A stretch of DNA of 16,936 nucleotides from a candidate division TA06 bacterium SM23_40 (lineage in GTDB: Bacteria; LJUI01; SM1-40), in assembly GCA_001303705.1 (NCBI GenBank), contig LJUI01000048.1, positions 1 to 16,936 of the forward strand. The letters run 5' to 3'. Both the position numbers and the translations under genes were made by a program. The notes under the pieces are model-generated. The model did not search any database, had not been told where the DNA came from, and worked only from the letters and a program-made list of their open reading frames with translations. Below, one piece after another: positions 1,598 through 16,936 of this stretch (position 1 is the first letter of the stretch; the number at the start of each line of letters is the position of its first letter).

Positions 1598-2554
1598 ATG
1601 AACAGACTGGTTGGCGCGCAGTCTCTCGCCGCAGCATCGGCGTTGCTGATCGTTCTCGCGCTTTCACCGTGCGCCGTGCTGGCCCAATCGAAGGTGGGGA
1701 CTGCCGGCATGCAGTTTCTCGAAGTCGGCACGACCGCCCGGGTCGCCGGGATGGGAGAGGCATTCGTCGCGGTGGCGGATGATGCATCGGCGCTGCGGTA
1801 CAATTCTGCCGGACTGGCGTGGTTGGAGGGACGAGAGGCCATCTTCGGCTACACGGACTATCCGGCGGATATCACGCTACAGTATGCCGGAGCCATAGCT
1901 CCCATCTCGCCCGTGATCGGCACGGTGGGGATCGCTGTCACCTCCCTGACGATGGATGATATGGTGGTGACGACGCCGGTCGACTCCGATGTGACCGGTA
2001 CGGGGCGCCACTTCACAGCGGGCGATGTGGCAGTCCAGCTGAGCTACGCTCGTATGTTGACAGACCGTTTCTCTGCAGGGCTGTCGGTACGGTTCATCCA
2101 GGAGGATCTCGAGGATGAGTCCGCCCAGGGGATCGGAGCAGACATCGGCACGTTGTATGATACCCACTGGAATACGGTCAAGGTCGGGATGAATATCTCG
2201 AATTTCGGACCGGACATGAAATTCGTGGAGGAGAGCTTTCCGCAGCCGCTCAACTTCACGGTGGGCGTGTCGGTAGAGCCGATCAGCGACGAACTACACC
2301 ATCTCATTCTTGGGTTCGAAGGAAGCCATCCGAACGATAACGAGGAGCGGGCCGCAGTAGGAGGGGAGTACACTGTGTACCAGATGTTGTCGTTCCGGGG
2401 AGGCTACAAGATCAACTATGATGCGGAGACATGGTCGGCCGGGGTCGGCGTTCAGGTTCCGTTAGGTGTGATGGGAGTCAAGGTCGACTACTCGTACACC
2501 GATTTCGGATATCTCAGTGATATCCACCGCGCGACACTGGGCATCAGCCTTTAG
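1598..2554 (+). CDS. PorV/PorQ-family outer-membrane beta-barrel protein
   Basis: The ATG at 1598 is preceded by AAAGGAGGA eight bases upstream, and it starts a clean signal peptide of about 29 residues with a V-L-A cleavage site before Q-S-K. The mature protein opens with the family hallmark: G-T-A-G-M-Q-F-L-E-V-G, then A-R-V-A-G-M-G-E-A-F-V-A-V-A-D-D-A-S and Y-N-S-A-G-L-A-W-L. The rest is alternating beta-strand sequence ending in a short terminal strand (A-T-L-G-I-S-L). At 318 residues it has the expected length for PorV/PorQ/UPF0164 proteins, which are FadL-like barrels. PorV itself is an outer-membrane partner of the type IX secretion system that receives secreted cargo. Being next to proteins with FlgD-like C-terminal domains fits a secretion or surface-attachment role, but no core secretion gene is in the window, so a T9SS assignment is inference. 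Confidence 0.85.
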   Translation: MNRLVGAQSLAAASALLIVLALSPCAVLAQSKVGTAGMQFLEVGTTARVAGMGEAFVAVADDASALRYNSAGLAWLEGREAIFGYTDYPADITLQYAGAIAPISPVIGTVGIAVTSLTMDDMVVTTPVDSDVTGTGRHFTAGDVAVQLSYARMLTDRFSAGLSVRFIQEDLEDESAQGIGADIGTLYDTHWNTVKVGMNISNFGPDMKFVEESFPQPLNFTVGVSVEPISDELHHLILGFEGSHPNDNEERAAVGGEYTVYQMLSFRGGYKINYDAETWSAGVGVQVPLGVMGVKVDYSYTDFGYLSDIHRATLGISL

Positions 2555-2800
2555 GCCGTGCGGCTCCGGTGGGCAGTTGGGCGCCGGCGGCAAGAGAAGA
2601 AAGGAGGAAAGTGATAGCCGTCGGAAGGCATGGACGTGAAGGGAAGCAGCGTTGTGCTTGTCAAAGAGCCCTCCCGTCGTTGCCTGAACGCTGCCACGTG
2701 GGTCAGGAGAGCAGCGAGGTCGGCTGTCAGCGAGGGGGGGAGAGACGAGGGATGGTAGATGGCAGATCTACCAGCCATGCGAGGAAGGAGGAGCGAGAGC
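2555..2800 (+). other. Intergenic leader of the first propeller gene, with RBS-proximal hairpin
   Basis: This 246-nt spacer has no supported gene and no convincing promoter. A hairpin lies at 2753-2773: TGGTAGAT, loop GGCAG, ATCTACCA (8 bp). It sits about 10 nt upstream of the GAAGGAGGAG ribosome binding site (about 2784-2792) that decides the ATG at 2801. A second strong SD-like sequence (AAAGGAGG, about 2600-2607) lies far upstream, in front of a GTG at 2611. The open frame from that GTG runs out of frame into the next gene and looks like a shadow. Confidence 0.45.
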
Positions 2801-4654: not shown

Positions 4655-4716
4655 GGACCGACAGGAGCGAGGCGCCGTCCGGGGCGCAGATAGAAAAACC
4701 TATCGCGATCACGTCT

Positions 4717-4758
4717 GGAGTTCCTCCGGGGTCGGGATACTCACCCCGGAGGAACTCC
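4717..4758. repeat. Perfect 16-bp inverted repeat (hairpin) between paralogous genes
   Basis: The left arm GGAGTTCCTCCGGGGT (4717-4732) and the right arm ACCCCGGAGGAACTCC (4743-4758) are exact reverse complements with a 10-nt loop. Neither side is followed by a T-run, so it does not look like a classical intrinsic terminator. It could be an intercistronic stabiliser, a processing or attenuation element, a protein-binding palindrome, or one copy of a dispersed REP-like repeat. Confidence 0.85.
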
Positions 4759-4803
4759 TAGAGAGGTCACGGAGTCGGGCAGCCCCGTGGCGGAAAGGAG
4801 GTG

Positions 4804-4860
4804 ATGTACCCCTCCCGGGGATATCGAGCAGCATGGCTTGTTTCCTTCTATTGGAGGTAG
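4804..4860 (+). CDS. Putative 18-aa leader ORF with near-perfect anti-SD complement
   Basis: The ORF MYPSRGYRAAWLVSFYWR starts at an ATG directly behind AAAGGAGGTGAT (4794-4805). That sequence matches the usual 16S anti-Shine-Dalgarno complement over about 11 bases. The SD core to ATG distance is only 2 nt, which is short for efficient initiation. The stop TAG (4858-4860) lies inside the ribosome binding site region of the next gene, 7 nt before its ATG, which suggests translational coupling. GGAGG (4797-4801) can pair with CCTCC (4811-4815), which would hide this SD. It may be a real leader peptide, a standby ribosome site, or chance. Confidence 0.3.
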   Translation: MYPSRGYRAAWLVSFYWR

Positions 4861-4867
4861 GGTGAGC

Positions 4868-6724
4868 ATGAAAAATGTAGTGTTTGCATGTGGTGTTGTG
4901 GTTCTCGTGCTGTCCGTTGCCCTGCCCTCGTGGGCGGCGCACGATGGCGCGGTCTCCAGAGAGGCGATCTCGAGGCCGATGGCCAGGGCCGGCGTGCCGA
5001 CAGCGACTCCCCCTCCGTTCTGGCAGTTGTCCACCGTTCGGAACGATGCCGACTATCTGAAGCAGGATGGCACGGGCGATTCGCCCCTCTCCTACCCGGG
5101 CTTCACCCACATCGCCCACGACATGGTCGAGGACGTTCCCTTCTGCCTGTGGCGTGAGGGCAGCTTCTCGGATGCAGATCTTCTCGAGAGCCACTGGAAC
5201 GATCTCTTTCTCTTCTGGACGACACCTGTCGAGGTCATCGCCGATGAGCTTGTGGCCAGGCGTGGGAACGGGTTGATGTACGATGACAACGGGGTGATCC
5301 ACGTCGCCGGCGCGTTCGGCCCCGGCTCTGGAGGTCCGTTCGACATCCGGTACGCCCGGCGCGATCCCGTCGCCGGAACGTGGGGAGCGTCGGTGCAGCT
5401 CTCAGTGGAAGACGATTCCACCGACTACTTCCCCGCGGGTACTGTCGATAGCAATGGGAATGTCTGGGTCGAATGGGAACGGGTCATCACTTCGCCCGCT
5501 CACGAGGCGATCCTGGCATACAAGTCCACCGATGGCGGCGAGACGTGGGATCCGGGCAATCGCGAGGTGATCGTCGATCCGTTCGATGGAGGATGGTCGA
5601 CCTGGAACATGTTCGCTGACCCGTCGAATGGAGACGTCTGGGGCGTCACTGGTGCCTTCGGCAATGAGGACCTGTTCAACGACCTCTGCATCTGGCACTA
5701 TGTGGCAGCGCAGGACACGTGGATGGGCCCGGAGATACCGGTAGTCGGGGATATGGCCCTGAACGACTCGCTCGGGTGGCAGGTGGCGATGCCGCAGATC
5801 GTCATCGACTCACAGCACAATGCCCACGTCGTCTTCGAGATGAACGGACAGGACGATCCCGCGACCAATCCACGTACGCTGACGGTCATTGCCAACATGG
5901 GCCCGTATGGAACGATGCACTATGTCAATAACGTCGGCGGCGACTGGTCTGACCCGGTCCAGATCTTCGTTGCACCGGACACCATCAAGCCGCAGACCGA
6001 CTCTGTCTGCGGTGTTCCGTCGATCGGAATCGACGCCTTTGACAATCTGTACATCTCCTTCTCCCAGGCACTCCAGGTCGATAGCCTGACGGCGACGGGT
6101 GTGATCTGGTCGATGCCGGTCGATGCTTACATGAGCTACAATCCGTACGATCCCGTGGCGCAGGAGTGGCTGGGGTGGAGCGACAGAGTCAAGCTCTCTG
6201 ATCTCCCGATCTGGGAGCTCGGGCCTGACTCGCTGGTCGGTGCCGACTCGGTCGCTCTGTACCCGGGGGTGACGCCCAGGGTCCCCTCCTCCGGCGAGAC
6301 GGCTGGCCCGGGGTTCTTCTGGTGTGAATGGCTGGCGGACAACAGCGCCAACGATTACCACATGATTGACTTCAAGTACGTCCACGCCAGCCTCTGCACC
6401 CTTCCCACAGGGATTTCGGTGGAGGAGCCCGTCTCGGTGAGGAGAGACGGTCTCTTCCTCGGCCAGAACAGGCCGAATCCGTTCTGGAAGAGCACCGAGA
6501 TCGCGTATGGACTGCCGCAGAGTGGGCATGTGCGGCTCGAGATCCATAACGTGCTGGGCCAGCGCGTGCGGACGCTCGTCGACCGCTTCCAGGATGCGGG
6601 AAGACACCGCGTCATCTGGGACCGCCGGGACGAGAGCGGTGCCTATGTGGCGAGCGGGATCTACTTCTACCGCCTCGAGGGACCCGGGACCTCTAAGAAC
6701 AAGAAGATGGCGGTCCTCAACTAG
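4868..6724 (+). CDS. Secreted Asp-box (sialidase-like) propeller protein with FlgD-like C-terminal domain, copy 2
   Basis: The start at 4868 is supported by TTGGAGGT nine bases upstream and by a typical signal peptide (K-N, hydrophobic core V-V-V-L-V-L-S-V-A-L, cleavage after S-W-A near residue 22). The 618-residue protein aligns along its length with the preceding gene: S-H-W-N-D-L-F-L-F-W-T-T-P-V, an Asp-box S-T-D-G-G-E-T-W, D-P-S-N-G-D, and matching D-S-Q-x-x-x-H-V-V-F strands. A FlgD-like domain covers about residues 529-618 (N-R-P-N-P-F, L-E-I-H-N-V-L-G-Q-R-V-R-T-L, A-S-G-I-Y-F-Y-R-L, K-K-M-A-V-L-N). The pair looks like an old tandem duplication, since the sequences have diverged well away from the conserved blocks. 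The likely role is a surface or secreted binding protein. No enzymatic residues are recognised. Confidence 0.8.
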   Translation: MKNVVFACGVVVLVLSVALPSWAAHDGAVSREAISRPMARAGVPTATPPPFWQLSTVRNDADYLKQDGTGDSPLSYPGFTHIAHDMVEDVPFCLWREGSFSDADLLESHWNDLFLFWTTPVEVIADELVARRGNGLMYDDNGVIHVAGAFGPGSGGPFDIRYARRDPVAGTWGASVQLSVEDDSTDYFPAGTVDSNGNVWVEWERVITSPAHEAILAYKSTDGGETWDPGNREVIVDPFDGGWSTWNMFADPSNGDVWGVTGAFGNEDLFNDLCIWHYVAAQDTWMGPEIPVVGDMALNDSLGWQVAMPQIVIDSQHNAHVVFEMNGQDDPATNPRTLTVIANMGPYGTMHYVNNVGGDWSDPVQIFVAPDTIKPQTDSVCGVPSIGIDAFDNLYISFSQALQVDSLTATGVIWSMPVDAYMSYNPYDPVAQEWLGWSDRVKLSDLPIWELGPDSLVGADSVALYPGVTPRVPSSGETAGPGFFWCEWLADNSANDYHMIDFKYVHASLCTLPTGISVEEPVSVRRDGLFLGQNRPNPFWKSTEIAYGLPQSGHVRLEIHNVLGQRVRTLVDRFQDAGRHRVIWDRRDESGAYVASGIYFYRLEGPGTSKNKKMAVLN

Positions 6725-6757
6725 GCTTAGGAGCATAGACACCGCCGCGGAGCGGAG

Positions 6758-6794
6758 AAAAGCGGCCCGGCCCCCGAAGGGGGCCGGGCTGTTT
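6758..6794. terminator. Bidirectional intrinsic terminator between convergent genes
   Basis: An 11-bp perfect GC stem (GCCCGGCCCCC at 6765-6775 with GGGGGCCGGGC at 6779-6789) closes on a tiny loop. On the plus strand it is followed by TGTTTC, a weak T-tract. On the minus strand the loop reads C-TTCG-G, a stable tetraloop, and TTTT follows shortly after the stem, from the AAAA at 6758-6761. It sits between the 3' ends of the plus-strand propeller gene (stop 6724) and the minus-strand lipoprotein gene (stop 6835), so it can serve both. Confidence 0.85.
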
Positions 6795-6834
6795 CATGGT
6801 AGTCTCGTTCTGACCCCAGGCTTTGACTCGAAGT

Positions 6835-8280
6835 CTAGAAGTTGTCGATCAGATCGGCGAGTGCCCGGCCCGCAAGATCTTCCTCCTCGCACAGGGAGAG
6901 CGGGAATGTGAGCAGCACGCTGTTGTACGTCTCGGCCTGGTACCAGGTCCCGCAGGGCAGATTCTCGTCCGGCGCTGCAGGACTCACGTCGTCAAACCCG
7001 AAGATCGTATGCCCGCCTGCGGCGAGCGGCACGACCAGATCCACCCGTGGGAACTGGCCGAAGGGCCATTTGGTGACCGAGAGGGAGAGGTCCGGGAACG
7101 TGATGCCGGCGACGGTCTGTCCGAATGCCCCTCCGAAATCTGAATTGTTCTCTTTGGTGAACCGGGACAATCCGAGGTAGTCATGGGTGAACGTGCCCGG
7201 GGTGGTTCCTCCCGGGGTTTGATCGAGTTCAAGGAGGAGTTCCGGCCCCACGAGGATCAAGTTTCCACCCACGCTCAGATACTCGGCGAGGAGCACCTTG
7301 TGGTTATCGAGGTCGCTCTCAGCGGGGAGATTTATGTGCTCGTTGTGCCAGATGACGGTTCCGTAGGCCTCGATGTCCGAGTGATCGAGATTCCACTGCG
7401 TCTCGAGATCCCAGTGGTCCACCGTCTCGACCAGGTCGCTCTCGCCTACGAGGTGTGTGCCGATCGAGTTCCAGTACGTGCTGTTCTTGTTTATTAACGT
7501 ATCAAATATCGGCATGGTGAAGAGAGTGCGGGTGGCATCGACGATGAGCACCGCGCTCGAATCGAGGGTCGGCTGCACGACCTTGAAGTTGACTTCTGCC
7601 GGAGTGGGGTCGGTCACACTGCAGTTGTCGATGGCCCGCACCTCGAAGACATGATCGCCGTCCGTGAGCCCCTGGTACAGTGCATAGGTCTCGGTCGTTT
7701 CGCTCCAGGGAAGCGAAGGAGGCGATTGCCTCGCCTCATACATCACGATGTATCCGTCCTCGTCGAGACCTCCGAATGTGAAGCGAATGCCGGGCCAGTC
7801 AGGAGTCGCGACGGGAAGGGAGAAGTAGGTATTGTCCTCCAGCCCGCTCGAGATGTAGGTTTCCGGCGCGAGCGTGTACACAGTGAAGATGCGATGATCC
7901 GGCGTCGGGTCGACAGCATCATCATCGTCGACCGCACGGACCCATATCTCGCGGACAAGGGTCGTATCGATCATCGCCACTGCCTCTGCGGAGTCGGCGG
8001 CAACGATGAGGAGGGCAGTCGTATCGGTCTCGACAAAGATCCACGACGTGGTGTCAGGAGTCGCATACTCGAAGCCGACGACCGATCCATCCTCATCATT
8101 CCCGTACCAGTACAGAGTCTGCAGGTAGGGAATGACGGCGCTGTCAGGAGGTACATTGACGAAATTCGTCTCCGGCGGGACGTTGGCCCGTGGGCTTCCC
8201 GGCTCGTCCACCTCTGCACATCCTAAGAACGCGATTAGGAACGCAATGCTCAACGCGAAGACGGCTCTTGTGATGCGCAT
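6835..8280 (-). CDS. Lipoprotein with two Ig/Fn3-like modules and a GATase-like C-terminal half
   Basis: The frame is open from 8373, but the ATG at 8278-8280 is chosen. It has AAGGAGGG eight bases upstream and begins a lipoprotein signal ending F-L-G-C (lipidated Cys at residue 21; F at -3 is slightly atypical). The 481-residue product has two similar modules. Each starts P-E-T and carries D-E-D-G-S/Y-I/V-V, then V-R-A-V-D-D or V-R-A-I-D-N, near the second half of an Fn3/Ig-like fold. The C-terminal half (from about residue 250, A-V-L-I-V-D-A-T-R) alternates hydrophobic strands and helices, with Y-G-T-V-I-W-H-N and Y-L-S-V-G-G-N-L-I-L-V-G-P-E. This resembles the class I glutamine amidotransferase/ThuA-like fold, but I cannot point to a complete catalytic triad. 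It is probably an envelope protein of unknown function. It is transcribed alone from its own promoter. Confidence 0.75.
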   Translation of the reverse strand: MRITRAVFALSIAFLIAFLGCAEVDEPGSPRANVPPETNFVNVPPDSAVIPYLQTLYWYGNDEDGSVVGFEYATPDTTSWIFVETDTTALLIVAADSAEAVAMIDTTLVREIWVRAVDDDDAVDPTPDHRIFTVYTLAPETYISSGLEDNTYFSLPVATPDWPGIRFTFGGLDEDGYIVMYEARQSPPSLPWSETTETYALYQGLTDGDHVFEVRAIDNCSVTDPTPAEVNFKVVQPTLDSSAVLIVDATRTLFTMPIFDTLINKNSTYWNSIGTHLVGESDLVETVDHWDLETQWNLDHSDIEAYGTVIWHNEHINLPAESDLDNHKVLLAEYLSVGGNLILVGPELLLELDQTPGGTTPGTFTHDYLGLSRFTKENNSDFGGAFGQTVAGITFPDLSLSVTKWPFGQFPRVDLVVPLAAGGHTIFGFDDVSPAAPDENLPCGTWYQAETYNSVLLTFPLSLCEEEDLAGRALADLIDNF

Positions 8281-8692
8281 TCGTAGACCCTCCTTGAAGG
8301 AACGTGTGTCGTCAGATGCCCGGACCTCGGGCGGCCGGGCGATCGGACGGCTTGAACTCGTGTCCTGAACCACTTCTACATGTTCCAGTAAGCCAATCAG
8401 ATAGCGTAAGGGATATTACGAGAACCCACTCTAGCAGATTGCCAACCTCCTGTCAACCCAAAAACTGGAGGCGATTATTTTTTCTTGCCGCCCAGGGTGC
8501 ATAGCTTCTCTCGCGTGAACGGGCCCCGGGGGCCCAAATGGCGGGCAGAGCGACGGACCCGTCGGCGCCTCCTGCGGACGGCTCCAGGGGCTCCCGGCAC
8601 AAAGGGCTTGCGCTCGCCGTCCCTGTATGTTAGGAGATACTATAGGTCTTTCTGTGTCAGCCCAAGAGCTATCTGGGGTGAAGGAGGAAGCG
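8281..8692. other. Divergent intergenic region (412 nt)
   Basis: This region separates the minus-strand lipoprotein gene from the plus-strand glycosyltransferase gene. It contains the lipoprotein promoter and its roughly 140-nt leader, an A/T-rich stretch at 8474-8485, and a GC dyad GGGCCCCGGGGGCCC at 8521-8535. No gene is supported. A plus-strand promoter for the glycosyltransferase operon must be here or nearby, but I found no good -35/-10 pair. The best -10 candidate is TACTAT at 8638-8643, with no matching -35. Confidence 0.5.
8428..8456 (-). promoter_or_regulatory. Sigma-70 promoter of the minus-strand lipoprotein gene
   Basis: On the minus strand the -35 TTGACA (8456-8451) is a perfect consensus. 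A 17-nt spacer (8450-8434) follows, then -10 TAGAGT (8433-8428). Transcription would start near 8421 and give a leader of about 140 nt before the ATG at 8280. Upstream of the -35 the minus strand reads AAGAAAAAATAAT and GTTTTTGG, which resembles an UP element. Confidence 0.8.
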
Positions 8693-10174
8693 GTGGACGT
8701 CTCGGTCGTCATTCCTCTGTTCAATGAGAGGGAGAATATCGGTCAGCTGTACGGGCGTCTTGTCTCTGTCCTGTCCGCGCTCGATCTCGACTGGGAGCTC
8801 ATCTTCGTGGACGATGGGAGTACCGACGGCACAGAGGGCGAGCTGACGTCTCTAGCCGGGGAAGATGGGCGTGTCCGCGCCCTCATCCTCACGCGTAATT
8901 TCGGCCAGCATGCGGCGCTCCTCGCGGGATTCGGGGAGGTACGGGGCGATTGTGTCGTGACCCTCGACGGTGATCTCCAGAACCCTCCGGAGGATCTCCC
9001 CCGTCTACTCGATGCCCTGGGAGAAGGGTATGATGTGGTCTCCGGGCGCAGAGTGGACCGAATCGATCCGCTGTTTCGCCGCGTGGTCTCCTGGCTCACC
9101 AATAGGCTCGTATCGCGCGCCACAGGACAGCCGTTTCGGGACTGGGGATCGATGTTCCGCGCTTACCGACGTCCGGTGGTCGATGCGATCTGCCAGTATG
9201 GGGAGAAGTCTCTATTCATCCCCACATTCGTCGGGGCACTGGGCGTACGCATGGCCGAGATAGACGTAGGTCACGCCCGGCGGGCCGCGGGGAGATCAAA
9301 GTACGGCGTTCTCGATCTGCTCCGGCTCTATTTCGACCTTGCCATAGGACTGACACTCATTCCGGTCCAGGCGATCGCCCTTGCAGGAGGAGTGCTGGCC
9401 TCTGTCGGTTTCCTCCTCGGGCTGTACATCTTCGGGAGGCGGATCGTCATCGGTCCCGAGGTTGAGGGTGTCTTCACCGTCTTCGCCTTCTTCTTCATCT
9501 TCTTCGGCACACTGCTCATGGCGGTTGGCATGTTGGGCGAGTACGTGAGCCGCATATACCGGGAAGTCAGGCCTGCGCCCGCATTTCGGGTGAGGCAGAT
9601 CGTGGGCGCGGATGAAGGACGGCATCCCAGGATCGCGGTTGTCGGCTGTGGCGATTTCGGGCGTGCCTGTACCGAAGCAGTAGTACGCGGCAGGGGAAAT
9701 GTCGTGGCCGTCGTCGCATGTCCGGAAAAGGAGAGGGAGGAGGGTAGCGCGTACTCATCGCTACACGAGTTTGCATTCGAGCACCACATACCGCTGTACC
9801 GATCTTCGATCGGCGGCGTGGCAGCGCTCGCGCCGGCCCTCAAGAAGGTGACTCCTGAGCTCATATTCTTCATTCCATGCGATCAGCCCATCCCCGAAGA
9901 GATCGCGCAGTTGCCGCGGCTTGGGTGCATCGCCATCCATATGTCGAGCGACCCTGTCACGTATGAACAGCATGTAGATGAGGCGGAGTCTCCGACAGGG
10001 AGAGAGGGGTCCGTTGTACTGCGCCATCTACGAGGAGGGAGGGCTCTGGTTCTTGCTCAACAACGTGTGATGCTCAGGCCCGGGGAAAGGTTGTCTCCAG
10101 ACAGCGCGGAGGTGGTGGAAGTTGCGGCCCGCCTTGTGGAGCGTCATCTCGCCCAGATCGAGTCCGGCCTGTGA
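8693..10174 (+). CDS. ArnC-like polyprenyl-phosphate glycosyltransferase fused to a formyltransferase-fold domain
   Basis: The GTG at 8693 is preferred over the upstream ATG at 8627 because AAGGAGG lies 5 nt before it and the product then opens with D-V-S-V-V-I-P-L-F-N-E, as GT2 enzymes do. Residues 1-215 are GT2 with D-D-G-S (40-43), L-D-G-D-L-Q-N-P-P-E (91-100) and R-S-K-Y (201-204). Two membrane segments follow (about 218-245 and 258-280), then the signature L-G-E-Y-V-S-R-I-Y-R-E-V-R. The line-up with E. coli ArnC, which attaches Ara4FN to undecaprenyl phosphate, is close as I remember that sequence (G-Q-H, R-A-Y-R-R, G-V-F). ArnC ends there. This protein adds about 180 residues (313-488) resembling the ArnA formyltransferase N-terminal domain: I-A-V-V-G-C-G-D-F-G, H-I-P-L-Y, T-P-E-L-I-F-F. 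The catalytic N-x-H reads A-I-H and the later Asp is replaced, so this domain is probably inactive or regulatory. First gene of the operon. Confidence 0.85.
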   Translation: MDVSVVIPLFNERENIGQLYGRLVSVLSALDLDWELIFVDDGSTDGTEGELTSLAGEDGRVRALILTRNFGQHAALLAGFGEVRGDCVVTLDGDLQNPPEDLPRLLDALGEGYDVVSGRRVDRIDPLFRRVVSWLTNRLVSRATGQPFRDWGSMFRAYRRPVVDAICQYGEKSLFIPTFVGALGVRMAEIDVGHARRAAGRSKYGVLDLLRLYFDLAIGLTLIPVQAIALAGGVLASVGFLLGLYIFGRRIVIGPEVEGVFTVFAFFFIFFGTLLMAVGMLGEYVSRIYREVRPAPAFRVRQIVGADEGRHPRIAVVGCGDFGRACTEAVVRGRGNVVAVVACPEKEREEGSAYSSLHEFAFEHHIPLYRSSIGGVAALAPALKKVTPELIFFIPCDQPIPEEIAQLPRLGCIAIHMSSDPVTYEQHVDEAESPTGREGSVVLRHLRGGRALVLAQQRVMLRPGERLSPDSAEVVEVAARLVERHLAQIESGL

Positions 10175-10257
10175 CGGCCGCAGGGCTCGGGACGGTCCAC
10201 GCTCCGGCTGGCACCGGGCCGATGGCGGCCTGAGCAGGGGAGTAGAAGGGACAGCGC

Positions 10258-10995
10258 GTGCGTGCAGCGCGAGATAGATTCTTCCGGCGGTACTGGCAGA
10301 CCCCTGCCTGGTTCAGGGGTGAGGTCTATGACTATGAGGGATTCGCGTGCGAAGCCTCTGAGTACGCATATGAGCTGCTCGCTCCGCTCGGGGGCGCAAG
10401 GGTGCTCGAGCTGGGCACAGGTCAGGGGTACGACGCCATCGCCCTTGCGGAACGCGGTGCCCGGGTAGTGGCCGCCGACCTGGCAGAAGCGCCGCTCCGT
10501 TCCCTGAGGGAGAAGAATGTCTCAGGAGCATCGATCCGGCCCGTCTGCATGCTCGCCGAGGAACTCGCCTGCAGGAGCGCCTGCTTCGACCGTATCTTCG
10601 GGAGGACTGTGCTGCTCCACGTTCTCCGTCCGAGCGTGTGGCACGAGGTAGAGCGAGTTCTCAAGAGCGGGCAGCGCGCGGTCTTCATCGAACCTCTGCG
10701 CGTCAGTCCGCTCGTCGTGCTCTATCGTATCGCGCGTGGAAAGGGCAGATCTGCCCGGCCCCGTTATCTCAGCCTGGGGGAGATCATTCGGCTCAACACC
10801 CGATTCCGTACAGTGGAGCACCGGGAGTTCTATCTGATATCGGTCCTCGCCCTCGGGTTGCGTCCGGTCCTCTCACGCATAGGGCTCTATTGGCGAGCGG
10901 TGGGGATTCTCAAGCGATTGGACGAGGTGGTATTCGATCTGCTGCCGTGGGCGAGACATCTCGCGTGGATCGCTGTCTTCGCAGTGGAGAGGTGA
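10258..10995 (+). CDS. Class I SAM-dependent methyltransferase
   Basis: The start is the GTG at 10258, with AGAAGGGA about 6 nt upstream and no better in-frame codon. The 245-residue protein has a Rossmann methyltransferase core: motif I V-L-E-L-G-T-G-Q-G-Y-D (about 49-59) for SAM binding, then R-V-V-A-A-D-L-A with the acidic residue that holds the ribose, and a later D-R-I-F-G-R-T-V-L-L-H-V-L motif. The segment V-E-R-V-L-K-S-G-Q-R-A-V-F-I-E-P matches the post-motif III strand of the Methyltransf_11/25 group. The last 70 residues contain hydrophobic stretches, which suggests a membrane-associated or lipid-linked substrate. It lies between an ArnC-like and an ArnD-like gene, so methylation of a lipid-linked sugar or its lipid is a reasonable guess. 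The substrate cannot be read from the sequence. Confidence 0.82.
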   Translation: MRAARDRFFRRYWQTPAWFRGEVYDYEGFACEASEYAYELLAPLGGARVLELGTGQGYDAIALAERGARVVAADLAEAPLRSLREKNVSGASIRPVCMLAEELACRSACFDRIFGRTVLLHVLRPSVWHEVERVLKSGQRAVFIEPLRVSPLVVLYRIARGKGRSARPRYLSLGEIIRLNTRFRTVEHREFYLISVLALGLRPVLSRIGLYWRAVGILKRLDEVVFDLLPWARHLAWIAVFAVER

Positions 10996-11001
10996 GGTAT
11001 C

Positions 11002-11925
11002 CTGTCCGAAGGCTTAGCGCTGAGAGTCGACGTCGACACGCGTCGCGGACTGGAACGCGGCGTACCGCGATTGCTCGATCTGTTCGCCTCCAGGGAGATC
11101 GCTGCGACCTTTTTCATCCCTTTCGGCCCGGACCGGTCAGGCCGGGCGGTCCGCCGCCTGTTCGAGCAGCCAGGGTTCCTGAGGAGGATGTGGCGGCTCG
11201 GCGCCCCCGGCCGCTACGGTCTCCGGACGATCCTCTCCGGCACCCTCATCCCATCTGTCCCCATCGGCAGCGCGAGACCGGATATCTTGCGTTCTGTTGC
11301 GGCAGAAGGGCACGAGGTCGGTTTGCATGGATACGATCACGTGCGGTGGCAGGATCGGCTCGGCGATCTCACCCCATATGAGGTCGCACTCGAATTGGAG
11401 ATGGCGAGCAGAGCCTATCAGGGCATCTTTGGCCAGTTGCCTCGGGCGAGTGCCGCGCCCGGTTGGCGCACCAATGAGCGTGCGCTTCTCGCACAGGAGA
11501 CGCTCGGCCTTCACTACGCGAGCGATGTCCGTGGCCGCAGGCCCTTCTGGCCTGTCGTTCTGGGGAGGAGGCTCGAGACACTCCAGATCCCGGTGACGAT
11601 GCCGACGCTCGACGAGATCTTTGCCTGGGAGGGGCCGGAGCGGAGAGGACCGGAGCGGGCACTCCTCGGAGCACTCGTTCCCGGCAGTGCTAACGTGCTC
11701 GCGGTGCACGCAGAGATAGCAGGGGGTAGCGCGCTTCCCATCCTGAGAGAATTCATCAGCATGGCTCGCGACCGGGGGTACTCGATCTCGAGACTCGAGG
11801 ACCTGGCCCGGGACGTGCTCGGCTCGGGCGAGCAACTACCCTCGTGTGGTATCGGCCTGGGGAGGGTGCCCGGCAGGGCGGGTATGGTCGCTGTCCAGGC
11901 CGAGGTCACCGAGCCTGCATCATAG
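11002..11925 (+). CDS. arnD: ArnD-like polysaccharide deacetylase (undecaprenyl-phosphate formamido-sugar deformylase)
   Basis: The protein matches E. coli ArnD, as I remember it, almost motif by motif: L-R-V-D-V-D-T-x-R-G, G-V-P-R-L-L, A-T-F-F, G-P-D-x-x-G-R, R-R-M-W-R, G-H-E-V-G-L-H-G-Y-D-H-V-R-W-Q (about residues 103-117), S-A-A-P-G-W-R-T-N-E, Q-I-P-V-T-M-P-T-L-D-E, and V-H-A-E-I-A-G-G near the end. ArnD is a metal-dependent NodB-fold hydrolase that removes the formyl group from Ara4FN on undecaprenyl phosphate. The metal ligands (Asp in V-D-V-D, two His in H-E-V-G-L-H-x-x-D-H) are present. The start is unusual. The V-D-V-D motif lies upstream of the first ATG/GTG/TTG in frame (TTG at 11071), and an in-frame TGA sits at 10993. 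I chose CTG at 11002; ATC at 10999 is possible. GAGAGGTGAGG from the preceding gene's end may serve as SD. Confidence 0.85.
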   Translation: MSEGLALRVDVDTRRGLERGVPRLLDLFASREIAATFFIPFGPDRSGRAVRRLFEQPGFLRRMWRLGAPGRYGLRTILSGTLIPSVPIGSARPDILRSVAAEGHEVGLHGYDHVRWQDRLGDLTPYEVALELEMASRAYQGIFGQLPRASAAPGWRTNERALLAQETLGLHYASDVRGRRPFWPVVLGRRLETLQIPVTMPTLDEIFAWEGPERRGPERALLGALVPGSANVLAVHAEIAGGSALPILREFISMARDRGYSISRLEDLARDVLGSGEQLPSCGIGLGRVPGRAGMVAVQAEVTEPAS

Positions 11926-11939
11926 CGGGAACGGATCTC

Positions 11940-13343
11940 GTGCGAATCCTTCTAGTCAATCCCTCTCAGCGGACGGTCTATGGGCCCGGCATACTCCCGC
12001 CCTATCCGCCACTCGGCCTGCTGTACCTCGGGGCGGCGCTGGAGCAGGCCGGCCATCGTGTGGCCTTCTTCGACCACGACATAGAGCGCTCGCGGGGGAT
12101 CGACATGACCGCGGTCCTTAGGGAGTCCAAACCGGATCTTGTCGGCATCACGACTACCACTCCTACGCTTGGCGCCGCCCTGCGAGCTGGCCGGCTCGCC
12201 AAGGAGGCCGTCGGTTGCACCGTTGTTGTCGGCGGGCCCCATGCAAGTCTGGTCCCGACCGAGGTGCTGCGCTCCGAGGTGTTCGACATCGCGGTCGTCG
12301 GCGAGGGCGAGAGGACGATGACCGAGCTGGCGGCACATATTGCGGAGGGCGGCGAGTCGCTCGATCAGGTCGACGGAATCTACTACCGGGACGCGGGCGC
12401 GGTCGTGGCGACTGACAGGCGCGCGCCTGAACCGGATGTGGACAGCATCCCGTTTCCCGCCCGTCACCTCCTGTGCCACCCCCATGCCTACTCGCCCCCC
12501 GATGCGATTGCCCGCCCGTTCGTAACTATCATAGCTTCGCGTGGATGTGCTAACCGGTGCACGTTCTGTTCCACCCCCGCCCTGTTCGGGCCTGACGTGA
12601 GGAGGCGCTCGGTCTCAAATGTGATGGCCGAAATAGAAGACTGTGTGAGGCGGTATGGCATCAGGGAGGTACATCTGGCAGACGATTGTTTCACCAGCGA
12701 TCGGGGATGGACCCTGGAGTTCTGTGGGGAGCTGGCAGAACGTGACCTTGGCATCAATCTCTTTTTCATGAACGGACTGCGCGCCGATCAGGTGGATCGA
12801 GAGATGCTCGCGGCCCTCAAGCGCGTCGGACTCATCAATGTGGGGTTCGGGGTCGAGTCCGGGAACCAGTCTGTCCTCAATCGCGCGAGGAAGGGGTTGA
12901 GGCTCTCGCGCGTGGTGGAGAGCTTCGCCATGGCGAAAGACCTGGGGCTTACCACCTGGGCGTTCTTCATGATCGGTCTGCCGGGAGAGGACGAGAGCAC
13001 TGTGAGGGACACGGTGCGGGTCGCGAAGATGCTTGATCCCGATTTCGCGAAATTCTTCATATTCAAGCCATATCCCGGGAGTGAGGCGTACGAGGAGCTG
13101 AGCGCGCAGGGGCTCATCTTCGATCGTTGTCCGGATCACTATGGGTTGTACGGCCCTCCCGTACACCGGTTGCCGGAGTTGGGCGAGTCGCGCATCGCTC
13201 GCTGGTACCGCCGCGCGAATATCGAATTCTACCTGCGGCCTCGGACGATCCTGCGCCACCTGCTCCGCGTGAGATCGTTCTCTCAGCTTCGCCTCAATCT
13301 GAGGGCGCTGCGGTTCCTCGCTCAGTCCGTCGCCAGGATGTGA
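11940..13343 (+). CDS. B12-binding-domain radical SAM protein
   Basis: The GTG at 11940 starts V-R-I-L-L-V-N-P directly, 14 nt after the ArnD-like gene; the SD is weak (GGGAACGGA). The open frame extends further upstream but there only overlaps the previous gene. The 467 residues have an N-terminal cobalamin-binding-like domain (about 1-140: P-P-Y-P-P-L-G-L-L-Y-L-G-A-A-L-E, H-R-V, V-V-G-G-P-H-A-S, V-V-G-E-G-E). A radical SAM core follows with C203-x3-C207-x2-C210 (R-G-C-A-N-R-C-T-F-C) for the 4Fe-4S cluster, then F-G-V-E-S-G-N-Q and M-I-G-L-P-G-E-D-E-S-T. This is the BchE/HpnJ-type architecture, whose members methylate unactivated carbons, rearrange rings or perform other radical chemistry. 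The D-x-H-x-x-G cobalamin motif is not obvious in the N-terminal domain. Being just behind ArnD suggests the substrate is the same lipid-linked sugar. Confidence 0.85.
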   Translation: MRILLVNPSQRTVYGPGILPPYPPLGLLYLGAALEQAGHRVAFFDHDIERSRGIDMTAVLRESKPDLVGITTTTPTLGAALRAGRLAKEAVGCTVVVGGPHASLVPTEVLRSEVFDIAVVGEGERTMTELAAHIAEGGESLDQVDGIYYRDAGAVVATDRRAPEPDVDSIPFPARHLLCHPHAYSPPDAIARPFVTIIASRGCANRCTFCSTPALFGPDVRRRSVSNVMAEIEDCVRRYGIREVHLADDCFTSDRGWTLEFCGELAERDLGINLFFMNGLRADQVDREMLAALKRVGLINVGFGVESGNQSVLNRARKGLRLSRVVESFAMAKDLGLTTWAFFMIGLPGEDESTVRDTVRVAKMLDPDFAKFFIFKPYPGSEAYEELSAQGLIFDRCPDHYGLYGPPVHRLPELGESRIARWYRRANIEFYLRPRTILRHLLRVRSFSQLRLNLRALRFLAQSVARM

Positions 13344-13420
13344 TGGGGGGGAAGTTCCCGCTACCGAATGCCGGGGCGGTGGCAAACCGACGGCATCCAT
13401 CGAACAAGAGCTGACCGGCG

Positions 13421-15754
13421 ATGAATGGACGACAAGACGTTACCTCACGAACTGCAGCTGTGGGTTTTCTCTCCTCGGTCCTGCTGTCGCTGATTCTCTA
13501 CCTCGCGACACTCTGTCCGACGGTCTACTGGGAGGACAGTGGGGAGCTGATAAGCGCCGCGTATAACCTGGGCATCGCGCATCCGCCCGGACATCCGCTT
13601 TACGTGGTCTCCACCCGGTTCACACTCCTGCTAACACCGTTCGATCCCGCGATCGGCTCCAACGCGGCCTCCGCAGTCGCCGGTTCGCTGGCTGTCGGCG
13701 CGATCTTTCTGGCGATCTGGACACTCTGCCCCGATGAAAGGACCGCAGTTCGCTTCCTCGCCTCCCTCACGGGGGCGCTCTCACTCGCAGTTGCCAGGAC
13801 GTTCTGGAGCCAGGCCGTCATCGCAGAAGTGTACAGTCTGGCATGCCTGGTCTGCGCCCTCCTGCTTCTTCTCGTCCTGCGCTGGGCGATGCATCGAGAG
13901 ACAAATGCGCTGATGCTCGCGGCATTTCTGTTCGGTCTGGGAATGGCGAATCATGTCTTTCTCGGTGCACTTCTTCCCGGGTTGGCCCTCATGGCCTGGG
14001 CCGGGCCGGGCGGTGCAGGCAGGGGGCGAGGAACGCTGGCCATAACAATGGCCCTCCTCGTCCTCCTCGGACTATCCCTGTACCTGTACCTTCCTCTCCG
14101 TTCCCGGTGCGATCCTTCGCTCGATTGGGGAGATCCAGAGCGGCTGGACCGGCTGCTCGATCATGTAACGGCGCGGGAATTCGCGTCCGAGTTCTTCTCT
14201 CTACGTCTCACCGTGGCCGGGGGTCCGCTCGCAGGGATGGTGGCGTTTGTGCAGGACCTCCCCCGGCAGTTCGGCATGCTATGCGTCTCGGCGGCGGCAG
14301 TTGGCCTGGTGAAGCTCCTCCGGCGGCGGCTCATCGCTGCCGGGCTCGTAGTGGCAGCCGCAGGGACGATACTCTTCGCGGGATTCGCTGGTGGGGGGCC
14401 GGACTACGCTGCCTATCTGCTCCCGGCCCATCTCGTCGCAGCACTTCTCGTGGGATGCGGCGTCTCGGCTGTCGCGAGATGGATGACCGCGATGAGGGTC
14501 CCGGCATTCATCGTTCCCGTCCTCCTCCCACTTCTCATAGTGCCGGAGGTGATCCCCAACTGGGACGAGAGCACACGGCATGGGGTAGTCGGCGCCCGGG
14601 AGTACGTGCATGACATGGCTGAGATTCTGCCGCAGCGGGCTCTGTTCATCACCGAGAACAGCGTAGACTACTTCGTGCTGCTCTATCTCCAGCTTGTGCG
14701 GGGGGAGAGGTTAGACGTCGATCCTGTGTACTCGCCGCTCCTGGCGACCGAGTGGTACCGGGAGAGGCTGAGGGACAGGGGGCTCAGGCTCGGGAACGAT
14801 CGGGACGAGCCCGGCCTGCCACAGGCCCAGATTGCTGGCAGGGGATCGGTCGCAGAATCGCTGGCGGCGCTCAACATCGATGACCGTCCGGTATACTACT
14901 CTCCGGGTCCGCGGTTCATGATCGACCCTGGGCGGCTTGTGCCTTGTGGCCTGGTCTATCGTTCTCTGCGCGACGAACGGGATGTCACGCAGGAGGAGCT
15001 CGTACAACACCGTCTCCTGTTGAAGGGCTATGGCGCGCCGCGTGGGCGGATTGACCGAAAGACACGCACCCACTATGCCCTGCTCCATGCTCACCTTGGC
15101 TCCTATTGGTTTGAGCGGCAGCTGTTCGAGGAGGCGCGTCACGCTTACGAACAGGCCGAGTTGTACGATCCCCGCAATCCTGCCATACATTACGACCTCG
15201 GCGTGATCTTCGAGAGACTGGGATCCCGGGACGATGCGGTGGCGGCATATCGGCGCGCAGTGGAGCTCGGGCCAGAGGAGGCAGATTCACGGCTTCGCCT
15301 GGCCGATCTTCTGCTGAGGGAGGGTCTGTATGAGGAGGGCCTGCAACAGCTTCATCAGGCAGCGAATCGGCATCCTCGATCGTCTGCCGTCGAGGTCGCG
15401 ATGGCGCGGGCCTATCTCATCACGGGGGACATCGCTCGGGGCAGGGAAGCAGCAGCACGCGCGATAGCACTCGATCCGGCCTCGTCTGAGGCGCACGCCG
15501 TCAACGGCCTGTCGATGCGGCAAGGCCGGGATCTGAGAGAGGCAGTCCAGGCGTTTCTGGTGGCACTTGAGCTCGAGCCCGGGAACGAGGAGGCCCGGCT
15601 CAATCTTGCCCTGACCTACCGCGAGTTGGGTATGCGGCCAGAGGCGATGCATCATCTCGCGATCCTGGCCGAGGAGCATCCGGAGGAGGAGCTGTATCAG
15701 GAATTTCTCACCGAGCACGATCCCTCCCCGGGCGGGGGCAGGGAGGAGCGATGA
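13421..15754 (+). CDS. DUF2723 (GT-C-type) membrane protein with C-terminal TPR domain
   Basis: The ATG at 13421 follows a 77-nt spacer; no strong SD is visible. The 777-residue product begins with the DUF2723 hallmark (P-T-V-Y-W-E-D-S-G-E-L-I-S-A-A, then I-A-H-P-P-G-H-P-L-Y). About eight to ten membrane helices extend to about residue 360 (for example L-L-L-L-L-V-L-R and M-A-L-L-V-L-L-G-L-S-L). A soluble middle region follows, then five to six TPRs from about residue 550 (A-L-L-H-A-H-L-G-S-Y-W-F, A-I-H-Y-D-L-G-V-I-F-E-R-L-G, A-R-L-N-L-A-L-T-Y-R-E-L-G). DUF2723 belongs to the GT-C superfamily of polyprenyl-phosphate-sugar-dependent transferases, and the acidic D-S-G-E motif is typical of that fold's catalytic loop. 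In this cluster it is the best candidate for the final transferase, in the place of ArnT. The TPRs may recruit the acceptor or a partner. Confidence 0.85.
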   Translation: MNGRQDVTSRTAAVGFLSSVLLSLILYLATLCPTVYWEDSGELISAAYNLGIAHPPGHPLYVVSTRFTLLLTPFDPAIGSNAASAVAGSLAVGAIFLAIWTLCPDERTAVRFLASLTGALSLAVARTFWSQAVIAEVYSLACLVCALLLLLVLRWAMHRETNALMLAAFLFGLGMANHVFLGALLPGLALMAWAGPGGAGRGRGTLAITMALLVLLGLSLYLYLPLRSRCDPSLDWGDPERLDRLLDHVTAREFASEFFSLRLTVAGGPLAGMVAFVQDLPRQFGMLCVSAAAVGLVKLLRRRLIAAGLVVAAAGTILFAGFAGGGPDYAAYLLPAHLVAALLVGCGVSAVARWMTAMRVPAFIVPVLLPLLIVPEVIPNWDESTRHGVVGAREYVHDMAEILPQRALFITENSVDYFVLLYLQLVRGERLDVDPVYSPLLATEWYRERLRDRGLRLGNDRDEPGLPQAQIAGRGSVAESLAALNIDDRPVYYSPGPRFMIDPGRLVPCGLVYRSLRDERDVTQEELVQHRLLLKGYGAPRGRIDRKTRTHYALLHAHLGSYWFERQLFEEARHAYEQAELYDPRNPAIHYDLGVIFERLGSRDDAVAAYRRAVELGPEEADSRLRLADLLLREGLYEEGLQQLHQAANRHPRSSAVEVAMARAYLITGDIARGREAAARAIALDPASSEAHAVNGLSMRQGRDLREAVQAFLVALELEPGNEEARLNLALTYRELGMRPEAMHHLAILAEEHPEEELYQEFLTEHDPSPGGGREER

Positions 15755-15998
15755 GGCGATGAGAGCGCTGCGTGAGGGGGGGAAAAGAAAGATTGACAAC
15801 ACTGCAAGGGCGTACCATAATCCCCACTGAAGCGATATAGACCGGGGATCCGCGATTCCGCTCGATCACCCGGAAGGTTCTTCTGCTCCAGGATGGTGCG
15901 GCCCGACGGAGTCTGATGAATGGTTTGCGTCCGGGCTCGCTCTCGCAGGGGCAGGTGCCGGGGTGGGTGCGGAATCGTGAACATGGGAGATCGCGAAC
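15755..15998 (+). other. Leader/promoter region of the GT9 gene
   Basis: This 244-nt stretch between the DUF2723 gene and the GT9 gene contains the promoter below. A stem follows at 15842-15873: CCGGGGATC pairs with GATC and CCCGG around one bulged A, with a 13-nt loop. A 52-codon ORF (ATG 15916, stop 16072-16074) also lies here. It overlaps the GT9 start in another frame and ends within a hairpin. The 23-codon ORF at 15759-15830 spans the promoter and is not believed. Confidence 0.5.
15793..15821 (+). promoter_or_regulatory. Sigma-70 promoter for the GT9 gene
   Basis: The -35 TTGACA (15793-15798) is a perfect consensus. A 17-nt spacer and -10 CATAAT (15816-15821, 5 of 6) follow. Transcription would start near 15828, about 170 nt ahead of the chosen ATG at 15999. 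It gives the GT9 gene its own transcription unit downstream of the glycolipid operon. Confidence 0.8.
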
Positions 15999-16936
15999 AT
16001 GTGGAGCGCCGTGGCGAACCGGCTTCTGCTCAACTCCCTCAAGATCGTGTATCGGCGGCCTGTCATCCCCTTGACAGGCCTTTTGAGGAATCCGAATGGC
16101 ATCATCGTACGCTCGCCTTCGGGTCCAGGGCAGTACCTGTTCTCGATGCCGGCGCTGTGGGCATTGGTGAAGCTCCACCCCTCGACGCCCCTCGTCCTTA
16201 TTCTCTCAGGCGAGGGTCAGGATCTTCCCTGTCCTTTGCCGGCCCACTGCGAGGTCGTCCGCATCGATTTCAGCCGGCTCCGGGCGAGCGGCAGGCTGCA
16301 TCGCAGGTCGCGCCGCGTGCTCGGGCAGTATGGCGCGGATCTCTTCGTCGACTTCGAGGGGGCGGGAGAACCCGCGATGATGGCGGCGTGGGCGGCGAAT
16401 ACTCCGGTGCGCGCGACATTCCGGTGTCCGGGACTCACTCCCTTCTTCAACTGTGAGGTCGTCGTCGATCTTCCCCGTTGTCGGGACGATATCGACCGCT
16501 ATCTGCGTCTCGTCGCGGCGCTCGGAGCCGAGGCCGAGGATCGATCCCTGGACCTCGATCTCGGAGCCGATGAGCTGGCCAGGGCCAGGGACTTCTTGCG
16601 CCTGGTCGGCCTGAGGAAGGACGAGGTACTCGTGGGCCTGGACATCGGTCCGCCGGCCGACGGCTCAGACCTAGATATGGAGCTCCTGATGAAGTTGATC
16701 GTTGCCCTCGAGCGCAGGGTGTCGAATGTACGGTTCCTGGTCACTCACTCTACCGGGCGCCCGCTACTCCCCAAGATGCGACACCTCCTGGCGAGGGAAC
16801 CGCTCGTCGTCGTCGAGCCGGGATTGCGCCACCAATCGGCCCTCGTCGCCCAGTGCGCGCTTCTGATCGCACGACAGACCGATCTTTTCTCCGTCGCCTG
16901 TGCGCTCGGGGTGCCGGCCCTTCTCCTGCGGGGCAG
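15999..16936 (+). CDS. GT9 family glycosyltransferase, heptosyltransferase-like (partial, 3' truncated)
   Basis: The frame starts at ATG 15999 (SD GGGAG nine bases upstream; in-frame stop at 15978) and is open to the window end, giving about 312 residues. It has the GT9 layout: P-N-G-I-I-V-R-S-P-S-G-P-G-Q-Y-L-F-S-M-P-A-L-W-A-L (position of the usual IGD motif), a middle linker, then D-E-V-L-V-G-L-D-I-G-P-P, and near the end H-Q-S-A-L-V-A-Q-C-A-L-L-I-A-R-Q-T-D-L-F-S-V-A-C-A-L-G-V-P-A (the ADP-heptose-binding side). GT9 enzymes add heptose to the LPS core. The usual S-I-G-D reads S-G-P-G-Q here, and N-D-T-G reads R-Q-T-D, so the donor may differ. The first 30 residues precede the family's normal start, so TTG 16083, just after a terminator-like hairpin, is an alternative start. 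Confidence 0.78.
   Translation, partial: MWSAVANRLLLNSLKIVYRRPVIPLTGLLRNPNGIIVRSPSGPGQYLFSMPALWALVKLHPSTPLVLILSGEGQDLPCPLPAHCEVVRIDFSRLRASGRLHRRSRRVLGQYGADLFVDFEGAGEPAMMAAWAANTPVRATFRCPGLTPFFNCEVVVDLPRCRDDIDRYLRLVAALGAEAEDRSLDLDLGADELARARDFLRLVGLRKDEVLVGLDIGPPADGSDLDMELLMKLIVALERRVSNVRFLVTHSTGRPLLPKMRHLLAREPLVVVEPGLRHQSALVAQCALLIARQTDLFSVACALGVPALLLRG
16057..16084 (+). terminator. Terminator-like hairpin inside the 5' end of the GT9 gene
   Basis: GGCCTGTCA (16057-16065), loop TCCCCT, TGACAGGCC (16072-16080) form a perfect 9-bp stem followed by TTTT. CCTCAA (16037-16042) could pair with TTGAGG (16083-16088) in an alternative or extended fold. The hairpin lies about 230 nt from the predicted transcription start, so it may act as an attenuator. 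It also encodes residues 20-28 if translation begins at 15999, so chance is possible. Confidence 0.45.

Follow-up and report, generated by a model that had tools for sequence, protein, structure and literature searches.

The window analyzed here is the whole 16,936-nucleotide stretch of candidate division TA06 bacterium SM23_40, i.e., the entire contig C167 (LJUI01000048.1) of the source genome (G000; 2.88 Mb, ~90% complete), and the element under study is an operon of five + strand genes at positions 8693-15754, which lie head to tail with intergenic gaps of 83, 6, 14, and 77 nt. In order, they code for an ArnC-type family 2 glycosyltransferase (GT2), a methyltransferase (MT), an ArnD homologue, a B12-binding radical SAM enzyme (rSAM), and a DUF2723 transferase. 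The original prediction, made from the letters alone, had described this layout and these five families and had read them as a rearranged Arn-type pathway for a lipid-linked sugar. Layout and families were both borne out, the latter by domain searches, while the description of the first gene as a plain ArnC-like GT2 was right about the ArnC type and had overlooked a degenerate ArnA-type formyltransferase (FT) domain fused to it. The operon is conserved and functionally coherent, and the label 'Arn-type' is valid for two of its steps only. Its genes and domains are as follows:

8693..10174, + strand: ArnC-type GT2 fused to a formyltransferase-like domain (NF007986, PDB 9bhc, Foldseek, Shine-Dalgarno)
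9625..10174, + strand: degenerate ArnA-type FT domain at the GT2 C-terminus, probable pseudoenzyme (Foldseek, residue losses)
10258..10995, + strand: class I SAM-dependent methyltransferase (PF08241, BLASTP, alignment)
11002..11925, + strand: ArnD-family carbohydrate-esterase-4-type deformylase/deacetylase, likely with a CTG start (PDB 8t0j, residues, tree)
11940..13343, + strand: B12-binding radical SAM enzyme, subfamily unnamed, close to BchE/HpnJ (Pfam, NCBIfam, tree, CxxxCxxC)
13421..15754, + strand: DUF2723/TMEM260-type (GT117) GT-C glycosyltransferase with a C-terminal tetratricopeptide repeat (TPR) domain (PF11028, TMEM260 profile match, VIA-align)

Conservation of this arrangement, which the original prediction had left to gene neighbourhoods in related genomes, was assessed in a survey of 386 genomes (22 of them ArnD-bearing), where the phylum of the window is represented by the source genome alone, and at loci of ArnD relatives from public genomes. 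The full GT2-MT-ArnD-rSAM-DUF2723 order was also found at L137 and L138, loci of genomes from two genera of one family in another phylum (G151 and G289), and the partial order ArnD-rSAM-DUF2723 at L114, L134, L135, and L185. The latter is carried by G030, G145, and G146, which belong to another phylum again, and by G387, a relative of G151 and G289, where it stands at the contig start. The TA06 locus L042 has GT2-FT-MT-ArnD followed by the start of a DUF2723 gene. In G117 the genes are spread over three contigs, the first with GT2-FT-MT-carbamoyltransferase-DUF2723 (L215), the second with rSAM-DUF2723, and the third with ArnD and a DUF2723 fragment. The carbamoyltransferase is of the NodU/CmcH type (L215:419-2080; PF02543, PF16861) and lies between MT and DUF2723, in the place that ArnD and rSAM take in the window, so the tailoring enzymes seem interchangeable. 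Since the five-gene order recurs at L137 and L138, and partly at L114, L134, L135, L185, and L042, it is well beyond chance and is kept in other phyla.

The co-occurrence of the genes points in the same direction. In a tree of the closest homologues, the window rSAM and its cluster orthologues formed one clade (SH-aLRT 99%), and all non-window members of this clade in the survey (7/7) come from ArnD-bearing genomes. The chance of such a co-occurrence of rSAM and ArnD is 5e-10 by genome, a figure that the relatedness of the genomes makes too small, and about 7e-6 by family, assuming an estimated 260 families. Among 80 ArnD relatives in public genomes, 72 adjoin another arn-type gene (arnB, the ArnA dehydrogenase, or arnT); at these same 80 loci, an MT or DUF2723 gene adjoins arnD only in TA06 L042, and an rSAM gene in none (0/80). 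A literature search on ArnD, ArnC, and radical SAM enzymes together returned nothing on this cluster, which is weak evidence of novelty as subscription papers were mostly outside the search. Other arrangements were seen as well. G243 has GT2-FT, ArnD, and rSAM on three separate contigs (L055 9965-10903, a record shared with G243:C1), its rSAM gene adjoining an RtcB-like one. G366 carries a different, mixed cluster (L142 5015-12544) of a short-chain dehydrogenase/reductase (SDR), an ArnB-like protein, ArnD, GT2, a formyltransferase, a 368-aa protein with hydrophobic stretches, and a B12/radical SAM enzyme; the latter belongs to another clade and makes this a second pairing of ArnD and radical SAM genes.

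The first gene opens with a GTG (8693) preceded by an AAGGAGG Shine-Dalgarno, an alternative in-frame ATG being present at 8627. Its GT2 domain (PF00535, 5.7e-31) matched the ArnC model NF007986 (7.9e-90) and, among solved structures, ArnC (9bhc, 9e-81, residues 24-327), GtrB (3e-44), and dolichol-phosphate mannose synthase (8e-23), and ArnC ranked first in the Foldseek search with its predicted model (8.8e-30). The GT2 part ends in two transmembrane helices, after which comes the FT-like domain (residues ~335-515 of the reading frame from 8627), whose model matches the ArnA transformylase (Foldseek, 7.9e-10). In E. coli ArnA numbering, this domain has lost N102 (to A), D140 (to G), and, by deletion, the YRG loop. 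N102, H104, and D140 are residues that we take to be catalytic, N102 and D140 being kept in 81 of the 81 intact formyltransferases compared. The Pfam scan of the first gene gave no Formyl_trans_C domain. Judged by its residues, the fused FT domain of the window is probably a pseudoenzyme; GT2 fusions with an intact FT domain are found in Elusimicrobia (L018), TA06 (L042), G117 (L215), and G243 (L216).

The MT (PF08241, 1.4e-12) is homologous by alignment to the MTs in the equivalent position of L042, L137, L138, and L215, with BLASTP scores of 114 bits to that of L042 and 92 bits to that of L215. No ATG, GTG, or TTG occurs in the first 23 codons of arnD, and the CTG at 11002, behind a strong Shine-Dalgarno (GAGAGGTGAGG), is the likely start codon. 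Its product matches solved ArnD over its full length (PDB 8t0j, 8.5e-48, residues 5-302), other carbohydrate esterase 4 enzymes reaching 7.2e-6 at best; it retains the ArnD-family invariant residues D9, R174, H233, and E235, and an HxxxH motif is seen when aligned to 8t0j. In the phylogeny, which the original prediction had named as decisive for this gene, it clusters with ArnD and not with other polysaccharide deacetylases, YadE and PgaB falling outside. Neither of the two outcomes that the original prediction had set as refuting it, a gene order not shared by relatives and a grouping with peptidoglycan or chitin deacetylases, was encountered. The rSAM has B12-binding (2.9e-21) and radical SAM (7.2e-23) Pfam domains and a CxxxCxxC motif, and its NCBIfam scores are far under the cut-offs of every named equivalog family. 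Assignment to BchE (198.6 bits vs. a cut-off of 481) was rejected, as was assignment to HpnJ (170.8 bits vs. the TIGR03471 cut-off of 577.6), BchE being the higher-scoring of the two.

The last gene codes for a protein with a DUF2723/TMEM260-like domain (PF11028, 1.6e-30, 106.6 bits vs. a gathering score of 24.2) followed by TPRs, and the family profile built from its relatives matches solved human TMEM260 (9rql, 1.1e-49). When its predicted model (mean pLDDT 81.6) was searched with Foldseek alone, TPR proteins came first; VIA-align resolved the membrane part, with Pmt4 (Z 26.5), ArnT bound to undecaprenyl phosphate (26.3), and OST/STT3 (~26) tied, so that, by its model, the protein has the GT-C fold expected of it from the start. 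D39, H54, G57, E136, and Y138 are invariant, D39 being the first-loop acidic residue in 11/11 sequences. TMEM260 is a protein O-mannosyltransferase, and both TMEM260 (GT117) and the TMTC family (GT105) modify Ig-like domains (PMC11292533). The operon protein resembles these enzymes in its DUF2723/TMEM260 membrane domain and first-loop Asp, and its TPR tail recalls the TPRs carried by TMTC proteins (PMC7801869); it differs from them in being bacterial and encoded with a predicted polyprenyl-phosphate amino-sugar route. The literature search, which did not extend to most subscription papers, found no paper under the DUF2723 name for bacterial proteins. Three more DUF2723 paralogues occur in the source genome (contigs C19, C63, and C70), the C63 copy near pilin-like genes.

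Outside the operon, the window holds the following features:

1598..2554, + strand: PorV-like type IX secretion outer-membrane protein, upstream of the operon (PF19572, 1.2e-10)
15793..15821, + strand: promoter-like site 3' of the operon (11/12 consensus match only)
15999..16934, + strand: GT9-like glycosyltransferase that runs off the contig (PDB 3tov GT9, 0.0012; no Pfam match)

The promoter-like site at 15793..15821 suggests that the gene from 15999 onward is a separate unit, and the GT9-like gene is probably not part of the five-gene one. A second promoter-like site, likewise a consensus match only, lies on the - strand before the first gene and is directed away from the operon. The upstream region (1598-8373) contains the PorV-like gene, two genes for secreted proteins whose C-termini are of the FlgD_ig type, and a 512-aa gene on the reverse strand. 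No Rfam families and no tRNA genes were found in the window, and membership in anti-phage defence families was dismissed, the matches being marginal.

Besides loading and deformylation, the Arn system requires the ArnA decarboxylase, the ArnA formyltransferase, ArnB, and ArnT. No ArnA decarboxylase was found in the window, and the best match in the source genome is a generic SDR with 82.7 bits, vs. 370-525 bits in typical arn loci, while Binatota-type arn loci likewise have only a distant SDR (about 155 bits). The source genome has no intact sugar formyltransferase, only PurN- and Fmt-like enzymes besides the degenerate domain, and G151, G289, and G387 also have two ordinary formyltransferases and no sugar formyltransferase. 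ArnB is absent from the window, the strong DegT matches of the source genome being confined to contigs C62 and C149. One of the ArnB-superfamily aminotransferases of this genome adjoins a hexapeptide acyltransferase, which would put N-acetyl sugars on a par with N-formyl ones as candidate donors. There is no ArnT in the window either, where a DUF2723/TMEM260 family protein is the end enzyme and the GT-C fold is common to both. The lack of an intact sugar formyltransferase, of an ArnA-type decarboxylase, and of a nearby arnB renders both 4-amino-4-deoxy-L-arabinose (Ara4N) and a formylation step doubtful, and the sugar of the operon is probably not classical Ara4N.

In the Arn (Pmr) system (arnBCADTEF), ArnC accepts only the formylated sugar for loading, deformylation by ArnD follows, and ArnT then hands over the amino sugar on the periplasmic side (PMC12748117). 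The operon shares with it an ArnC-type loading enzyme, an ArnD homologue, a GT-C enzyme folded like ArnT, and the ArnA-type FT domain, of which TA06, G117, and G243 have intact fused copies; it differs in that the window is devoid of ArnA decarboxylase, ArnB, ArnE/F, and ArnT, in the fusion and decay of FT, in two added tailoring enzymes, and in an end enzyme of the TMEM260 family. Of the order of chemistry put forward in the original prediction, ArnC-type loading, an ArnD homologue, and a GT-C fold therefore stand, and the decarboxylase, formyltransferase, ArnB, and ArnT are missing. The search it had suggested for ArnA and ArnB partners turned up no ArnA decarboxylase, active formyltransferase, or ArnB in the window and none convincing in the source genome, and the removal of a formyl group from formylated Ara4N by the ArnD-like enzyme could not be established, given the lost catalytic residues of the fused FT and the lack of an ArnA-type decarboxylase.

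With moderate confidence, we favour the reading of the operon as an amino-sugar pathway on undecaprenyl phosphate, one that has borrowed the ArnC and ArnD steps and is not the Ara4N system. Family identities, the predicted GT-C fold, conserved residues, the FT losses, gene order, and co-occurrence were observed, and from them we infer the order of the steps, the substrates, and the acceptor. At the inner leaflet, the ArnC-type GT2 would load undecaprenyl phosphate with an N-acylated amino sugar taken from a nucleotide donor. The ArnD homologue would then strip the N-acyl group, freeing the amine and pulling the reversible loading forward; the acyl group would be formyl in relatives whose GT2-FT is intact, and, given the seemingly dead fused FT of the window, it may be acetyl there, or a formyl group of other origin. 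The MT and the B12/radical SAM enzyme may subsequently tailor the lipid-linked sugar by O- or N-methylation and by C-methylation or ring rearrangement, respectively. A flippase, not found here, would carry it outward, and the TPR-bearing GT-C enzyme of TMEM260 type would pass the sugar to a surface acceptor, perhaps Ig-like domains on exported proteins or a glycolipid.

Several observations weigh against this pathway. The NF007986 score of the GT2 (301 bits) is under the equivalog cut-off (529), which limits its assignment as an ArnC-type polyprenyl-phosphate formamido-sugar transferase to subfamily kinship. Similarly, the match to the ArnD model NF011923 (2.6e-61, 207 bits) is under its cut-off of 382, for which reason the gene product is classed as an ArnD homologue and not as a certified ArnD. 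In the alignment, the GT2s at L137 and L138, which have no FT domain, lack the transmembrane segments of ArnC, and for this latter reason sugar loading may differ there. With the source genome ~90% complete, the missing ArnA, ArnB, and FT genes could lie in its gaps. Furthermore, the ArnDs of G117, G243, G151/G289, and the G030 group form one clade (support 97*) and the window ArnD falls outside it, pairing weakly (82) with a canonical-type ArnD of G085, at whose locus FT and SDR genes adjoin; this suggests an operon of mixed history. On the tree, either ArnD was replaced in the window's lineage by a more canonical one, or long branches mislead the topology; if it was replaced, the step itself was kept, which would be a hint that the pathway has a need for ArnD-type chemistry.

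As for the acceptor, the original prediction had offered lipid A, another glycolipid, or a protein, and lipid A turned out to be only one possibility among these. A true lipid A modification, with the amino sugar placed on a lipid A phosphate and the DUF2723 protein standing in for ArnT, is in our view unlikely. The ArnC and ArnD homologues, the alignment of the DUF2723 model to ArnT, and LpxC matches in G000, G151, G289, G030, and G117 would fit it. However, Pmt4 and OST align equally well as ArnT, the sequence kin of the DUF2723 family is the O-mannosyltransferase TMEM260 (PMC11292533), neither an ArnA decarboxylase nor arnB accompanies the operon, and G243, where no LpxC match was obtained, nonetheless has orthologues of GT2-FT, ArnD, and rSAM, an argument against lipid A being the acceptor in general (at ~93% completeness of this genome, the absence is uncertain). 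Somewhat doubtful, though deserving consideration, is the glycosylation of type IX secretion cargo or other surface proteins, in which the tailored sugar would be placed on Ig-like domains and the TPRs would recruit substrates. The TMEM260 profile match and the activity of TMEM260 and TPR-bearing TMTC proteins on Ig-like folds (PMC11292533, PMC7801869) are consistent with it, as is the neighbourhood: a PorV gene is situated upstream of the cluster in the window as well as in G117, G151, and G289 (BLASTP of the window PorV vs. those of L215, L137, and L138, 252-271 bits), and the interval from PorV to GT2 holds, in both the window and G117, a FlgD_ig-type protein and a gene on the reverse strand that resembles the 512-aa one of the window. 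Yet the secreted genes, known by neighbourhood, could have an unrelated function, and no PorV was seen near the three-gene core in G030, G145, and G146. The most specific version, in which a bacterial TMEM260-type GT-C enzyme puts an ArnD-deacylated, rSAM-rebuilt undecaprenyl-phosphate amino sugar on Ig-like domains of type IX-exported proteins, we regard as quite unlikely.

Very unlikely, too, is a glycolipid route on the model of HpnI-HpnK-HpnJ, by which a glucosamine headgroup becomes a cyclitol ether (PMC12583986); a glycosyltransferase and a deacetylase would be followed by an rSAM that converts the deacylated amino sugar into a cyclitol by rearrangement. The chemistry runs in the same order, with a lipid-linked amino sugar handled successively by a glycosyltransferase, an N-deacylase, and a B12/radical SAM enzyme (an analogy that makes no family claim), and HpnJ is the second-best NCBIfam match of the rSAM (171 bits). 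By score the rSAM is nevertheless not HpnJ, and the other cluster rSAMs score still lower against that model; the glycosyltransferase and deacylase are of other families, the GT2 being ArnC-type, and no hopanoid gene was seen in the window nor does anything else tie the operon to hopanoids. That the five are envelope glycan genes brought together by chance, with no pathway in common, is extremely unlikely: glycan genes often cluster, and the closest relative of the window ArnD differs from that of the other cluster ArnDs, but the identical five-gene order in another phylum, the partial orders in others, and the co-occurrence of rSAM and ArnD all contradict it.

The gene order across phyla ties bacterial DUF2723 proteins to a specific lipid-linked sugar route, by which their donor becomes testable, and it places ArnC and ArnD steps outside the context of polymyxin resistance. 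The rSAM represents an unassigned B12/radical SAM subfamily with a likely sugar-lipid substrate. Some lineages carry the FT domain as a GT2 fusion and in others it has decayed or is missing, a pattern relevant to the question of whether this chemistry can do without formylation. If the glycosylation of Ig-like domains were true, it would constitute a novel type of protein glycosylation and hint at the role of the bacterial TMEM260-type members.

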